DNA of 64,000 nt from Bacillota bacterium (GTDB taxonomy: Bacteria; Bacillota; Clostridia; Christensenellales; Pumilibacteraceae): the NCBI GenBank assembly GCA_009780135.1, contig WRAP01000003.1, forward strand, positions 1 to 64,000. The letters are read 5' to 3'. Each line of letters opens with the position of its first letter. Position 1 is the first letter of the stretch. Shown here piece by piece: positions 7,374-58,919 of the stretch. Position numbers and translations under genes: made by a program. The notes beneath the pieces were generated by a model, which was not told the DNA's origin, ran no database searches, and saw nothing but the letters and a program-made list of their open reading frames with translations.

Positions 7374-7478
7374 GGCTCGGACGGCAGAGTGCCGCCCCTA
7401 CAATTCGGCGGTGTTTTATTTGCTGCTTATTTTTTCATTTTTGCTTTACTGTAGGGGCGGCACTCTGCCGTTCGAGCA
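7374..7478. repeat. Inverted pair of REP elements
   Basis: Minus-oriented copy at 7374-7402 and plus-oriented copy at 7450-7478, both with the GGCACTCTGCC inner stem. They are near-perfect complements, so the transcript between terL and the next gene could fold into one long hairpin. Confidence 0.8.
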
Positions 7479-20736: not shown

Positions 20737-21828
20737 ATGAAGTTAGGCGTGGTAGGATTGCCGAATGTAGGCAAATCAACATTATTTAATGCGATTACAT
20801 CAGCGGGAGCGGAGTGCGCTAATTATCCGTTTTGTACAATAGAGCCGAATGTCGGCATAGTAGCAGTTCCGGACGAAAGATTATCAGTGCTAGAAAAAAT
20901 GCACAATTCTAAAAAGGTAATTCCTGCCAGTTTAGAATTTGTCGATATTGCGGGCATTGTTAAGGGAGCTAGTAAAGGTGAGGGTCTTGGCAACAAGTTT
21001 TTGTCGCATATCCGTAGTGTAGATGCGATAGTGCATGTTGTTAGGTGTTTTGGTGGTAGCGAGGTTATCCATGTAGACGGCAAAATAAACCCTGCTAGTG
21101 ATATGGATATTATAAATTTAGAGCTGATTTTAGCGGATTTAGAAAGCTGTGCTAAACAGCTAGAAAAAGCACAGAAAAACGCAAAAACTCACGATAAAAA
21201 ATATGTAGCAGAAGCGGAGTTACTTAAGAAAATTTATAATCATCTCGAGAGCGAAAAGCCTGTTAGAACTTTGGAGCTAAGTAAAGAAGACAGAGAAAAA
21301 ACAAAGGAATTCTTTTTTATAACCGATAAGCCTGTTATTTATTGTGCTAATGTAACTGAAGGTGAAAGCGTTGGGAGCGATAATCCATTTGTTGCAGTTG
21401 TGGAAAAGCGGGCAAAAGCGGAGGATGCTCAAACAATAGCAATAAGTGCTAAAATCGAGGCAGAGCTAGCTAGCTTACCGCCCGATGAGAGAGTAATGTT
21501 TTGCGAGGAGTTAGGAATTAAAGAAGCGGGATTAGCAAGGATTATTAAAGCAGGGTATTCACTACTAGGGCTTATTAGTTATTTAACCGCAGGCGAAAAA
21601 GAGGTACGGGCGTGGACTATAACAAAAGGCACAAAGGCACCAGGGGCAGCGGGTAAGATACACACCGATTTCGAAAAAGGCTTTATCCGTGCCGAAGTAG
21701 TAGCTTATAACGATTTGGTAACGCTAGGTAATATGACTATCGCCAAAGAAAAAGGTAAAGTTAGACTAGAGGGTAAAGAGTATATAGTAGAAGACGGCGA
21801 TGTAATGCACTTTAGGTTTAATGTGTAA
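20737..21828 (+). CDS. ychF: Redox-/ribosome-associated GTPase YchF (OBG family)
   Basis: Universally conserved P-loop ATPase/GTPase that binds ribosomes and takes part in stress responses. Motifs in order: G1 GLPNVGKST (7-15), the YPFCTIEPNVG switch region, G3 DIAGIVKGASKGEGLGN, and a C-terminal TGS domain (ARAWTITKGT-like start, ending MHFRFNV). The 363-residue length is standard. The mRNA is predicted to start at the ATG. It is clearly a host gene and marks the right edge of the phage block. Confidence 0.96.
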   Translation: MKLGVVGLPNVGKSTLFNAITSAGAECANYPFCTIEPNVGIVAVPDERLSVLEKMHNSKKVIPASLEFVDIAGIVKGASKGEGLGNKFLSHIRSVDAIVHVVRCFGGSEVIHVDGKINPASDMDIINLELILADLESCAKQLEKAQKNAKTHDKKYVAEAELLKKIYNHLESEKPVRTLELSKEDREKTKEFFFITDKPVIYCANVTEGESVGSDNPFVAVVEKRAKAEDAQTIAISAKIEAELASLPPDERVMFCEELGIKEAGLARIIKAGYSLLGLISYLTAGEKEVRAWTITKGTKAPGAAGKIHTDFEKGFIRAEVVAYNDLVTLGNMTIAKEKGKVRLEGKEYIVEDGDVMHFRFNV

Positions 21829-21832
21829 TATT

Positions 21833-21860
21833 GAATTGGAAATGAGAAATTAAGGACTTA
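21833..21860. repeat. Half copy of an intergenic word-array repeat
   Basis: AATGAGAAATTAAGGACTTATTAG: the word arm followed by the inverted core GGACTTATT. No opposite arm is seen. Confidence 0.5.
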
Positions 21861-21927
21861 TTAGTTTTATGTATTTGAAAATTACTAACCGTATGGGTAT
21901 CTCTATCGCTTACACTTATTAAAAAAT

Positions 21928-22278
21928 ATGCAGAAAAATAACAATGAAAAATCTAAAAATATTTGGAAATTAGTTGCGATATTGGTGCTTATTTTAATCG
22001 CATATAGTATCGTAACTATCAGTGGTATTTTATATTTATCCGCAACTGGTCGGGAAGCTATTGGTTATGCAATGATTCTTATTTATGCTTTGTTTTTTGG
22101 AGCTTTTTTGGTGTTTATTGCAATAGGTGTGGCAAAGCAATTTATAGATGAAGAGTACTCAGCCCCAAAATCTTATATAAAGATTGCTAAAATTTCCATT
22201 GTACTTGCTGTGTTGACGCTTGTAGCCTTTGGTGTAATCTTTTTTATCTACTTTATTAGTTCTAGTTCTTGTGGTTAA
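21928..22278 (+). CDS. Small three-helix membrane protein, unknown
   Basis: 116 residues with three hydrophobic segments (about 14-36, 47-68, 86-110) and a short Lys/Asn-rich N-terminus. The C-terminus is SSSSCG. No motif. It begins 100 bases after ychF and ends 6 bases before the transposase gene. Not recognised. Confidence 0.55.
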   Translation: MQKNNNEKSKNIWKLVAILVLILIAYSIVTISGILYLSATGREAIGYAMILIYALFFGAFLVFIAIGVAKQFIDEEYSAPKSYIKIAKISIVLAVLTLVAFGVIFFIYFISSSSCG

Positions 22279-22284
22279 TGTTAT

Positions 22285-22803
22285 ATGGATATTCAAGAAA
22301 AACAAACCCGAAAATTAAATCGTTTGTCCGAATTTGATTACAGTAGTAACGGAGCATATTACATTACGATTTGCAGTAAGGATAAAGCCCATATTTTTGG
22401 CGAGGTTGTTTGTAATAATCAAATTGTAGAGACAACAACCCGAAAAATAACTGTAGGGGCGGCAATCTGCCGCCCGAGCATTATATTATCGAGAGTTGGA
22501 GTAATTGTAGAGCAAGCAATTACCGAAATTCCAAAGCGATATAAAGATGTTTTGGTTGATAAGTATGTAATTATGCCTAATCATATTCATTTGCTAATAT
22601 CAATCAATAAGTGCGGGCGGCAGATTGCCGCCCCTACAATAAATTTAATAGTTGGTCATTTCAAAAGGGCAGTTAGTATGAATTTGCATCAACTTAATAT
22701 TTCAGATTCCATTTGGCAAAAATCATTTTATGACCATATTGTTAGAAACGATAAAGACCACCAAAGTATTTGGGATTATATAGACACAAATCCCGATAAG
22801 TAG
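22285..22803 (+). CDS. REP-associated tyrosine (Y1/HUH) transposase
   Basis: 172 residues of the IS200/RAYT type, single-strand endonucleases that act on REP palindromes. The start FDYSSNGAYYITICSKDK, the HUH motif NHIHLL (His100, His102) and the catalytic-tyrosine region WQKSFYDHIVRN (Tyr149) are all intact. Two REP copies are embedded in frame: residues 57-65 (VGAAICRPS) and 110-118 (CGRQIAAPT) are their translations, in opposite orientations. No terminal repeats flank the gene, as usual for RAYTs. It is the likely mobiliser of the window's GTAG-headed REPs. Confidence 0.88.
   Translation: MDIQEKQTRKLNRLSEFDYSSNGAYYITICSKDKAHIFGEVVCNNQIVETTTRKITVGAAICRPSIILSRVGVIVEQAITEIPKRYKDVLVDKYVIMPNHIHLLISINKCGRQIAAPTINLIVGHFKRAVSMNLHQLNISDSIWQKSFYDHIVRNDKDHQSIWDYIDTNPDK
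22452..22480 (+). repeat. REP copy inside the transposase gene, first
   Basis: TGTAGGGGCGGCAATCTGCC then GCCCGAGC, in frame and without stop codon. Confidence 0.85.
22612..22640 (-). repeat. REP copy inside the transposase gene, second, inverted
   Basis: Complement of the first copy, with the same GGCAATCTGCC stem; also in frame. The pair lies on both sides of the HUH motif codons. Confidence 0.85.
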
Positions 22804-22894
22804 TTAGAGGATGAGTATTATAATAATTTTTACAAAACATAATCAACTGTAGGGATGGTTTTTTGCTACCTGCATAATAGAAACAATAAAACAT

Positions 22895-23434
22895 ATGAAA
22901 ATAATGAAAAAAAGATATTATAAGATTTTGAGTGTAATCGCAGGAGGTATTTTTTTGACCTTTGCGATTGTGTTTTGGGTATTTCCGTATGAAATGGCAG
23001 GAGTGGTTCATTTAGATAGAATTCGTGGTGTATGCGTTCATTTTCCTAATGGGATTAGAGGGATTTGCTCGGCTTGCTATAATGTATGGGTTACGCAGGT
23101 GGAGTCGCAAAGAGCTTTTTTGTTTGAAATGCTAGGCATAATAATGGGGATATTTGCGATTGCCTATTTGGTAGTGATAATTATATTTTGCATTAGCAAA
23201 AAAGAAAAATGGAACGGACTTTTTTTGATTTTAACATTAGCACTTTCACTTGTTTCTTTTACTTTAATTGCAATATTAGTAAGATTTATACATCCGCATT
23301 GGCTTTTTTGGGGCAATTATGCTTTAGCTGTACCTGCTTTCTTGATAACTATTTTCATATTGATGCCTGTTGTTGCTATTGCGATAATAACATATTGTAA
23401 AAAAAGAAGATTGAGGATTAACAAACAACAATGA
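22895..23434 (+). CDS. Four-helix membrane protein, unknown
   Basis: 179 residues (176 if the ATG at 22904 is used), with hydrophobic segments near 12-32, 75-98, 107-128 and 138-163. A loop after the first helix has two Cys (GVCVH..., GICSACYN). The stop codon overlaps the argS start as ATGA, so the two are translationally coupled. No known family. Confidence 0.6.
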   Translation: MKIMKKRYYKILSVIAGGIFLTFAIVFWVFPYEMAGVVHLDRIRGVCVHFPNGIRGICSACYNVWVTQVESQRAFLFEMLGIIMGIFAIAYLVVIIIFCISKKEKWNGLFLILTLALSLVSFTLIAILVRFIHPHWLFWGNYALAVPAFLITIFILMPVVAIAIITYCKKRRLRINKQQ

Positions 23435-25107
23435 ATTATAAACAACACATAGTAAAAAAAATAAAAATGGAAGGATTTTCGTTTGATGAAATTCTTAGTA
23501 ACATAGTCTCGGCTTCTGAGGCTACTCACGGGGACTATTCTTTGCCGTGCTTTAGCTTTGCTAAAGCACTAAAAAAATCTCCCATAGTGATAGCTAACGA
23601 GATTAAAGAAAGCTTTACTTTGGATAAATATATCCAAAGAGTAGAAGTGATAGCAGGATATGTAAATTTCTTTTTAGAAAGAAAAAGTTTTATCGAGAGC
23701 TTTTTAACCGAATATAACAAAAACGGTGCTCCGTTTGCTTCGCTTAAAGCTAACAATAAAACGATTTGTATAGATTACAGCTCTATCAATATTGCTAAGC
23801 CGTTCCATATTGGGCATTTACTTACAACCGCAATCGGCGGTAGCCTTTACCGCATTTTTTCGCATCTTGGCTATACTGTTGTTGGCATAAATCATTTGGG
23901 TGATTACGGAACTCAATTCGGTAAACTTATTTCGGCTTATAAACGCTGGGGCGATAAAAAGCAAGTGGAAGAAGGTGGAATTACTGCTTTAACTACTCTT
24001 TATGTAAGGTTTCATGACGAGGCAAAAAATGATAAATCGCTAGAGGACGAGGCTCGTAAATACTTTTTAGATATAGAAAACGGCAACAAAGAAGCGATGG
24101 AATTGTTTAATTGGTTCAAAGAGCTTACAATGCTAGAGGTAGAAAAGGTTTATAAACGCTTAGGTGTTGTGTTTGACAGCTACGACGGCGAGGCTTTTTA
24201 TAACGATAAAATGCAGCCTGTTATAGATGTGCTTAATGAAAAAAATCTTCTTACAGTTAGCGAAGGGGCTAAGGTAGTTGACTTAGAGCAATTTGATATG
24301 CCGCCGTGCCTTATATTAAAATCCGACGGAGCATCACTTTATGCCACAAGAGATTTAGCTGCGGCGATGTACCGCAAAAATAAATATAATTTTGATAAAA
24401 ATCTGTATGTTGTAGCTTATCAGCAAAATTTACACTTTAAGCAGGTGTTCCAAACACTAGAGCTTATGGGTTATGATTGGGCACCAGATTGTGTTCATGT
24501 GCCGTTTGGTATGGTTAGCTTAGAGGGCGGACTGTCGATGAGTACAAGAGAGGGGAGAGTCGTTTATCTTAGCGATGTTCTGCAAACAGCGGTTGATAAA
24601 ACGCTTACTATTATAAAAGAGAAAAATCCGACTTTAGGGCAAGAGGAAAAAGCGTTAATTGCCGAAAAGGTGGGTGTAGGAGCAGTTGTGTTTATGGCAT
24701 TATCAAGTAGCAAAATTAAGGATTTAGTTTTTAGTTACGATAGAGCCTTAAATTTTGACGGCGAAACGGCACCTTATATTCAGTATACTCATACCCGTTG
24801 CCGTTCTATTTTAGCCAAGAGCAGCGGAGTGGCAACAGCGGAAACTGATAAGCTAACTGACGATGATAGCTTTGCAATAATAAAAATGCTAAGTAAATTC
24901 GATGACATTGTTACAACCTCCGCTATCAAATACGAGCCTAGCATTTTAGCTAAATATTTAATCGACATCTGTCAGCTATTTAACAAATATTATTCTAACC
25001 ACAAGATATTGGGTGATAGCAGTAGAGAAGCTTTAACCTCTATCGTAGCCCTCGCTTTAAAAAAAGGCTTGTCCTTACTGCTGATTGATGCACCGGATAG
25101 GATGTGA
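23431..25107 (+). CDS. argS: Arginyl-tRNA synthetase
   Basis: Class I aminoacyl-tRNA synthetase that charges tRNA-Arg in the cytoplasm. An N-terminal tRNA D-loop-binding domain (1-110) is followed by the HIGH box in FHIGHL. The KMSKS-like loop is MSTREG, as usual in ArgRS, and the helical anticodon domain ends IDAPDRM, close to the family's universal ending. The 558-residue length is normal. Translationally coupled to the upstream membrane protein by an ATGA overlap. Confidence 0.96.
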   Translation: MNYKQHIVKKIKMEGFSFDEILSNIVSASEATHGDYSLPCFSFAKALKKSPIVIANEIKESFTLDKYIQRVEVIAGYVNFFLERKSFIESFLTEYNKNGAPFASLKANNKTICIDYSSINIAKPFHIGHLLTTAIGGSLYRIFSHLGYTVVGINHLGDYGTQFGKLISAYKRWGDKKQVEEGGITALTTLYVRFHDEAKNDKSLEDEARKYFLDIENGNKEAMELFNWFKELTMLEVEKVYKRLGVVFDSYDGEAFYNDKMQPVIDVLNEKNLLTVSEGAKVVDLEQFDMPPCLILKSDGASLYATRDLAAAMYRKNKYNFDKNLYVVAYQQNLHFKQVFQTLELMGYDWAPDCVHVPFGMVSLEGGLSMSTREGRVVYLSDVLQTAVDKTLTIIKEKNPTLGQEEKALIAEKVGVGAVVFMALSSSKIKDLVFSYDRALNFDGETAPYIQYTHTRCRSILAKSSGVATAETDKLTDDDSFAIIKMLSKFDDIVTTSAIKYEPSILAKYLIDICQLFNKYYSNHKILGDSSREALTSIVALALKKGLSLLLIDAPDRM

Positions 25108-57686: not shown

Positions 57687-58919
57687 ATGGCAAAAAAGAG
57701 AAAAAAAATTAAAAAAATGAAAAAGGCTCCTAATTGGATGTTTTGGATTTTAAGAACACTCTTAAGGCCAATATTAAAATGCAAATATAATTATTCTTTT
57801 GATAGAAGCACCTCTAAAGGGATTAAACGCCCTTGCCTTATTGTGTGTAATCATCAAGCGGGCTTTGATCAGTTTGCTGTTGGGCTAGGTGTTAAATTTG
57901 GTATAAATTTTGTGGCTAGCGACACGATTTTCAGACACGGACTTCAAAGCTATGCTATGCTAAAACTAACTCGACCTATCCCGATTACAAAAGGAACTGC
58001 TGACCCAGTCGCTATAAAAAGTATGATGGAGGTAGCAAAAATCGGTGGAGCAGTTGGAATTTTTCCTGAGGGTAATCGCTGTTTTTACGGCGAAACTATG
58101 ACGGTTGGCAAGGGTACGGGTAGACTCGCTAAAAAACTTGCTGTTCCGCTTGTTATTATGCGACTTAGTGGTGTTTATTTAACTAAGCCAAGATGGAAAA
58201 TTAAACCTAATAAAGGCAAATCAACAGGTAAAGTTGTACGAATTTTAAGTGTAGAAGAATTAGAAAAATTAACTGCTTTAGAAGTTCAAGAAATCATCGA
58301 AAAAGAACTATACATAAATGAATTTGAATATAACAAAGAACAAAAAATCAAATTTATAGGCAAAGCAAGAGCCGAGCATTTGGAAAGTGTTTTGTTTTAT
58401 TGCCCAAATTGTCATACATTTGATGGCTTAAAATCTGAAAAACACAGTTTTTTTTGTTTAAAATGTAACATGAAAACCGAAATAGACGAATATGGTTTTT
58501 TTACTACTTATGTAGGGGCATTCAGTGAACGCCCGCAAATTCCGGAAACTATATTAGAATGGTCTAAACAACAAATAGAATATATCAAAAATTTTGATTT
58601 TTCTGCATTTATTGATAAACCGATTTTTAGTGACAATAATATAGAATTTTCTAAAGCAATAAAAGCGAAAAAACAAACCGATACACAAAAGGGAAGCATC
58701 GCATTTTATGGCGATAGAATAAGAGTATGCGAACAAGATATTTATTTTAGCGATATAAAAGCGTTATCAATACAAGAAGTACGCAAGCTAACTATTTATA
58801 CTACCACCGATGCTCTTGTTATTGATGCTCCTCTAAAATACAACCTAATGAAATATATGATTTGTGCTTATCATATAAAGCATACGCAAGAAAAAAAATT
58901 AGAATATTATGGATATTAA
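57687..58919 (+). CDS. PlsC-type acyltransferase with zinc ribbon and C-terminal extension
   Basis: 410 residues. The PlsC acyltransferase domain (about 45-210) has the catalytic NHQAGFD (55-61; family form NHxxxxD) and the substrate motif FPEGNR (126-131). It should acylate lysophosphatidate or a related acceptor at the membrane. A zinc ribbon (CPNCHTF...CLKC, about 239-260) and a C-terminal domain follow. Residues 276-284 (VGAFSERPQ) are the translation of a REP element inserted in frame. No Shine-Dalgarno site is visible. Confidence 0.82.
   Translation: MAKKRKKIKKMKKAPNWMFWILRTLLRPILKCKYNYSFDRSTSKGIKRPCLIVCNHQAGFDQFAVGLGVKFGINFVASDTIFRHGLQSYAMLKLTRPIPITKGTADPVAIKSMMEVAKIGGAVGIFPEGNRCFYGETMTVGKGTGRLAKKLAVPLVIMRLSGVYLTKPRWKIKPNKGKSTGKVVRILSVEELEKLTALEVQEIIEKELYINEFEYNKEQKIKFIGKARAEHLESVLFYCPNCHTFDGLKSEKHSFFCLKCNMKTEIDEYGFFTTYVGAFSERPQIPETILEWSKQQIEYIKNFDFSAFIDKPIFSDNNIEFSKAIKAKKQTDTQKGSIAFYGDRIRVCEQDIYFSDIKALSIQEVRKLTIYTTTDALVIDAPLKYNLMKYMICAYHIKHTQEKKLEYYGY
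58510..58540 (+). repeat. REP element inside the acyltransferase gene
   Basis: ATGTAGGGGCATTCAGTGAA then CGCCCGC, in frame, in the link between zinc ribbon and C-terminal domain. Frame is the same as that of the first copy in the transposase gene. Confidence 0.8.

Follow-up and report, generated by a model that had tools for sequence, protein, structure and literature searches.

Among the questions that REPs pose are how they spread and how each REP-associated tyrosine transposase (RAYT) recognises its own. In classical RAYT genes, two inverted REPs flank the ORF on the outside (Nunvar 2010, PMC2817692). REPs lying in frame within RAYT genes have already been published: the main text of Quentin et al. 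(2018, PMC6006769) describes in-frame, GTAG-tagged REPs inside the genes of TnpAREP subclass 2.4 (Bertels group 4), which carry the motifs NH[IFV]H, WQ and YIxNNP and have a variable HUH-Y distance (median 88 aa). The same text views these insertions as tolerated peripheral loops.

Here, we analysed a RAYT gene located in a window of 64,000 nucleotides, i.e., the whole stretch of DNA under study. We estimate with a probability of roughly 0.6 that this RAYT carries its own cognate REP pair inside its gene and represents a self-contained REPtron with the substrate within the gene. Comparison of about 150 relatives suggests that gene and target evolve as a unit, the two in-gene copies changing jointly and in parallel with one amino acid of the enzyme.

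A RAYT gene with an inverted REP pair in its reading frame

The ORF at positions 22285-22803 (+ strand) encodes 172 amino acids. It matched Pfam Y1_Tnp with 27 bits, above the cut-off, and NCBIfam REP_Tyr_transpos with 63.5 bits, below the cut-off of 80. A profile match (E 2e-11) and a Foldseek match (TM 0.55) were obtained to 4er8. The HUH motif (MPNHIH, residues 97-102; codons at 22573-22590, +) and the predicted catalytic Tyr165 (22777-22779, +), which aligns with Y115 of E. coli TnpAREP, were invariant among 56 homologues. The gene thereby combines an HUH motif with the one catalytic Tyr expected of a Y1 transposase fold, as is typical of a RAYT (TnpAREP).

The 3' end of the ORF is probably truncated by a TAG at 22801-22803. 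At this point the window reads NPDK*LEDEYYNNFYKT, whereas the intact paralogue on contig 9 reads NPDKWLDDKYYN; the TAG replaces the Trp codon of the paralogue, and stop codon and lost tail together occupy 22801-22842 (+). The window copy has thus probably lost its C-terminal tail and is slightly truncated, so that an initial description of the catalytic residues as intact holds for HUH and Tyr165 and has to be qualified for the C-terminus. In E. coli TnpAREP, C-terminal deletions of 34 or 21 residues harmed activity and deletion of the last 13 residues raised it (PMC8266576); the effect of the window truncation is therefore not predictable. Reading the TAG as a recoded codon was unsupported: a third RAYT copy in the same genome (contig 15) has internal stops, has lost the catalytic His and looks decayed. 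An assignment as anti-phage defence gene was dropped after PADLOC gave no match, as was a viral origin, since a relative among viral contigs was not confirmed.

The REP TGTAGGGGCGGCAATCTGCCGCCC is present within the ORF as two exact, inverted, in-frame copies on either side of the HUH codons. Each is a 24-nt GTAG-tagged palindrome with its tag facing outward. Site 1 (22452-22475, +) comprises the GTAG tag plus palindrome and codes for TVGAAICRP (the last part of residue 56 through residue 64); site 2 (22615-22638, -) encodes residues 111-118 (GRQIAAPT). This agrees with the first-pass annotation, which had described two opposite REP copies literally translated in frame and which we place at about residues 56-65 and 110-118. 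The full inverted repeat extends over 22444-22646, with two arms of 33 nt (22444-22476 and 22614-22646) that are 91% complementary and 137 nt apart. In 100 shuffles of the sequence, the REP pattern was never matched with up to three mismatches. Across the genes compared, the median complementarity of site 1 to site 2 was 24 for a gene's own pair, 10 for cross-gene pairs and 8 for codon-shuffled sequences. Shuffles, arm complementarity and these scores together rule out a chance palindrome.

As single-stranded DNA, each of the two REPs is predicted to fold alone, with a hairpin energy of -11.6 kcal/mol for site 1 (z -3.95). In the predicted fold of the 519-nt mRNA (minimum free energy -145.9 kcal/mol, z -6.9), both REPs pair in one long helix across the HUH codons, which bears out the earlier suggestion that the mRNA could fold in this way. 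Rfam returned no match to a known structured RNA in 21500-23500.

An AlphaFold model (AF2) of the window protein, with a mean pLDDT of 85.7, places site 1 within residues 44-64, a coil modelled with low confidence ahead of a helix (70-85), and site 2 in a coil (108-118) between the HUH strand and a helix (119-136). The model check that had been proposed thus locates both inserts in loops.

The two sites in relatives

We compared a first set of 81 genes (the window gene and 80 relatives taken from public genomes) with a second set of 86 genes, none of them near-identical to the first. GTAG-tagged (GTAGGG) palindromes were found at both sites in 68/81 and 51/86 genes, respectively, and the exact order of a plus copy before and a minus copy after HUH in 66/81 and 48/86. 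Measured from where the HUH motif starts, the sites of the first set lay at a median of 123 nt upstream and 45 nt downstream. Alignment of homologues, as the first-pass annotation had advised, therefore shows that other species carry the inserts at these two positions as well. No REP was present in the gene in three members of the first set (81) and seven of the second (86). Some family members with one REP or none keep intact motifs; hence, the pair is not essential.

The region just after HUH (site 2) showed several further arrangements. In L106, L124 and L141 it holds two REPs of a different type in minus/plus order (GTAGGGAACGGATTTATCC and GTAGGGAATGCATTTATGC), with tags inward. Tandem repeats occur at site 2 in L091 and L249, in the latter as three tandem in-frame copies of a unit with a decayed REP, GGCGAACTGAGTTCGCC. 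In L158 and L059, the site-2 REP has the opposite orientation and site 1 is without a REP.

Concerted change of the two copies

The palindrome varies between genes, yet both arms within a gene agree. In the first set, 32 of the 68 genes having both copies had identical ones. The mean edit distance between arms was 1.2 in the first set and 1.9 in the second, compared to 6.8 and 8.3 across genes. Site 1 and site 2 were correlated with a Mantel r of 0.86, against 0.22 for protein core and REP. A pair of proteins with about 83% identity (L099 and L151) has REPs differing at both stem sides in both copies. Some genes (L135, L127) contain two unlike palindromes each, and each palindrome is itself a GTAG palindrome; the copies are therefore replaced as units. 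At site 1 of L147 (L147:3157-3606), the REP loop is inverted relative to close relatives (GATGAGGGAATC vs GATGCCCTCATC), which is a trace of a palindrome-internal inversion.

These data also bear on whether the palindrome could be a coincidence within peptides that are simply conserved as protein. Recurring peptide types (VGAxxxRP, GRxxxAPT) would fit such an origin. However, one DNA element is translated into different peptides because its reading frame varies by gene (VGARIARP vs CRGAHCAP at site 1, APT vs PPLQ at site 2), and the two sites change in a complementary manner. Moreover, REP-free homologues from Chloroflexota, Bacteroidota and others have unrelated residues at both sites, so the DNA came first and not the protein sequence. 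Shared residues in REP-free homologues had been named as the result that would speak for the protein, and they are lacking; we regard a protein-first origin as refuted, with hardly any probability left to it. In the E. coli rayT control no REP was detected inside the gene, with a detector that requires near-perfect stems and would miss the bulged E. coli REPs.

REPs elsewhere in the genome

The genome of the window organism (1.58 Mb) contains 52 relaxed REP matches, several of them as inverted pairs, and the reversed-pattern control gave 0; the repeat is therefore a real REP family. The association with genome-dispersed GTAG-tagged REPs is a further hallmark of RAYTs. One correction concerns the exact REP variant of the window gene: no further copy of it was found in the genome, and the nearest dispersed copies are 2-3 bases off. 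The intact paralogue on contig 9 has another REP variant at the same two sites.

REPs next to the genes were rare. A GTAGGG palindrome was not detected outside the window gene within 4 kb, and only 1 of 73 genes had REPs on both flanks within 500 nt. The window gene therefore lacks the two inverted REPs flanking the gene on the outside by which RAYTs have been recognized (Nunvar 2010). In a homologue from Chloroflexota, a REP of this kind lies outside the gene only. The mean number of edits was 1.2 from arm to arm, 3.7 to the nearest flanking REP and 6.2 to REPs from other loci. Stems were perfect in 115/149 in-gene REPs vs 128/213 outside REPs.

Whole-genome counts in 23 genomes indicated that the in-gene REP type is usually also a REP type of that genome. 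This was clearest for type B, with 86 copies in four carrier genomes vs 1 in 19 others. For types C, E and A, carriers were rich too, less cleanly, and several non-carriers have copies; non-carrier G082 has many copies of type E. In carrier G075, no dispersed copies were detected, just the two in-gene copies.

Further palindromes were noted in the window and in relatives. An inverted REP pair at 7379-7473 has its GTAG tags inward and a spacing of about 50 nt; it is REPIN-like and has the layout opposite to that of the in-gene pair. At 58512-58534 (+), the GTAG palindrome GTAGGGGCATTCAGTGAACGCCC is translated in frame as YVGAFSERPQIPE within a 410-aa, acyltransferase-like ORF (57687-58919), i.e., as a coding REP in an unrelated gene. 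The flanks of L080 and L108 contain several GTAG palindrome families within 20 kb of one genome, more palindrome types than the single RAYT in view accounts for.

Residue 128 as a candidate for REP recognition

For REP type, the partial Mantel correlation was 0.26 with the C-terminal protein segment near site 2; with the N-terminal and middle segments there was no correlation (0.01). The strongest covarying column outside the REP-encoded residues was residue 128, most neighbouring columns being weaker. In the window protein this is Arg128 in helix alphaC (codon 22666-22668, +), and it covaries with the REP base preceding the loop. In the profile alignment to 4ER8, residue 128 is aligned with K82 of E. 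coli, which touches a REP stem base (PMC8266576).

With REPs of 22-23 nt, the base immediately preceding the loop (REP base 12) is A or T in genes with Arg128 and C in those with Gly128 or Glu128. This rule, found in the first set and restricted to 22-23 nt after both sets had been seen, held in 47/47 genes of the first set and 14/14 of the second (Fisher p 3e-4), i.e., 61/61 in total, and at both sites. A residue-128 code for 26-nt REPs was rejected, as most of these do not follow it. By parsimony, both traits changed at least 15 times on the best tree, and the rule was never broken; tree resolution is low, and the well-supported branches carry just 2-3 independent switches. Independent-pairs tests on the trees did not reach significance, with too few supported branches. 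The sequence data are thus suggestive of phylogenetically independent switches of residue 128 and REP, and residue 128 is likely to be the residue that reads the hairpin.

Proposed origin and maintenance of the in-gene pair

We propose that a REP-associated tyrosine transposase holds its cognate REP hairpins within its ORF, in two permissive loops (one before helix alphaA, the other between the HUH strand and alphaC) and with the GTAG tags outward. The REPs would have been put in place as DNA and would be renewed as DNA, because the copies change together, match the genomic REP family and track residue 128. Enzyme and substrate would then form one inheritable unit, unlike the classical arrangement, in which the REPs lie outside the gene. 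The enzyme presumably binds and cleaves the in-gene copies, enzyme activity or gene conversion may renew them, and selection could keep enzyme and substrate linked, e.g., on horizontal transfer. Several observations speak against this proposal: carrier G075 lacks detected dispersed copies, some non-carriers have many, family members with one REP or none keep their motifs, the window REP has no exact dispersed counterpart, most 26-nt REPs deviate from the residue-128 rule, and the trees support few independent switches. A wider version, i.e., a class of REPtrons in which the in-ORF REPs are the founder copies of the genomic REPs, are renewed by the enzyme and are read by the residue-128 code, is put forward only tentatively.

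The pair might instead be functionless. In that case, REPs mobilised by a RAYT would insert mostly in or close to the RAYT gene itself and would persist only where added peptides are tolerated, in the two loops, with repeated new insertions keeping the pair current. The tolerance of the loops, the long in-frame insertions and tandem repeats that L091 and L249 show at site 2, the oppositely oriented site-2 REP with an empty site 1 (L158, L059) and the further in-frame REP in an unrelated gene are all in line with such passive landing, and the main text of Quentin et al. likewise proposes little effect on activity (PMC6006769). The mostly inverted pairing, the concerted arms and the cleaner stems of in-gene REPs nevertheless exceed what random tolerance would leave behind, and we consider this explanation rather unlikely. 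Recombination between RAYTs, or template switching between the arms, might also move or copy REPs together with nearby alphaC codons, which would yield concerted arms and a residue-128 correlation without any recognition. REP type does track the C-terminal segment beside site 2 and not the rest of the protein, and one arm of L147 bears an inverted loop. However, the strongest single column is the equivalent of the stem-contacting K82 of E. coli, its neighbours are mostly weaker, and the residue-128 rule is without exception over these 15 or more parsimony changes; such an exchange therefore has a very small probability in our view.

Finally, by binding or cutting the REPs within its gene or mRNA, the enzyme might lower its own level, with the helix over the HUH codons slowing translation. 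The stability of the predicted mRNA fold with its two paired REPs would suit such a self-limiting circuit, although a strong inverted repeat folds in this manner whatever its role. RAYT copies cut off at an in-gene REP, or devoid of the segment between the REPs, point in the same direction. Genome G017 has a RAYT copy that ends at the site-1 REP and one that starts at it, beside another inverted REP; in a further copy (L154:5609-5932), the HUH segment is gone, a spacer of about 40-50 nt lies between two degenerate REPs, and the frame is open. These copies fit REP-based self-cleavage, and ordinary REP-REP recombination explains them equally well. Given that such truncations are few and that the examined ones all come from this single genome, we judge self-limitation to be improbable.

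Under the favoured reading of a RAYT with its cognate REPs inside the gene, each homologue provides a labelled enzyme-substrate pair, and recognition becomes readable from sequence. One candidate residue already splits two hairpin types in all 61 genes, which is testable by a single substitution. The gene would also offer an example of protein sequence that is imposed by a DNA element and not by the function of the protein.

Comparison with known systems

The locus shares with the classical REPtron (PMC2817692; E. coli TnpAREP, PDB 4ER8) the HUH-Tyr enzyme, the inverted GTAG palindromes and the dispersed family, and differs in that the REP pair lies inside and not outside the ORF. REPINs (Bertels and Rainey 2011, PMC3116915) likewise consist of two inverted REPs with a spacer, whereas the spacer of the in-gene pair, about 140 nt long, is essential coding sequence and contains the HUH codons. 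Intragenic REPs and Rickettsia palindromic elements (Di Nocera 2013, PMC3733652) are likewise palindromes translated within proteins. Whereas those elements reside in unrelated genes, the palindromes described here occupy two fixed sites in the gene of their presumed mobiliser.

A further comparison is with TnpAREP subclass 2.4 as described in the main text of Quentin et al., with which the window gene shares an in-frame REP within the gene, GTAG tags, NHIH and WQ. Its Y motif, YIDTNP, is one position off YIxNNP, and its HUH-Y distance of 63 residues (H102 to Y165) departs from the subclass median; the window gene is thus a candidate member of subclass 2.4. According to that text, the subclass 2.4 insertions generally lie between HUH and Y, are accompanied by REPs flanking the gene, and are known mostly from Cyanobacteria and Bacteroidetes. 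In contrast, the family of the window gene has an extra REP before HUH, an inverted and concerted pair, and rarely flanking REPs. That main text does not mention the pre-HUH site, the paired concerted evolution, how scarce REPs next to the gene are, or a residue-128 rule.
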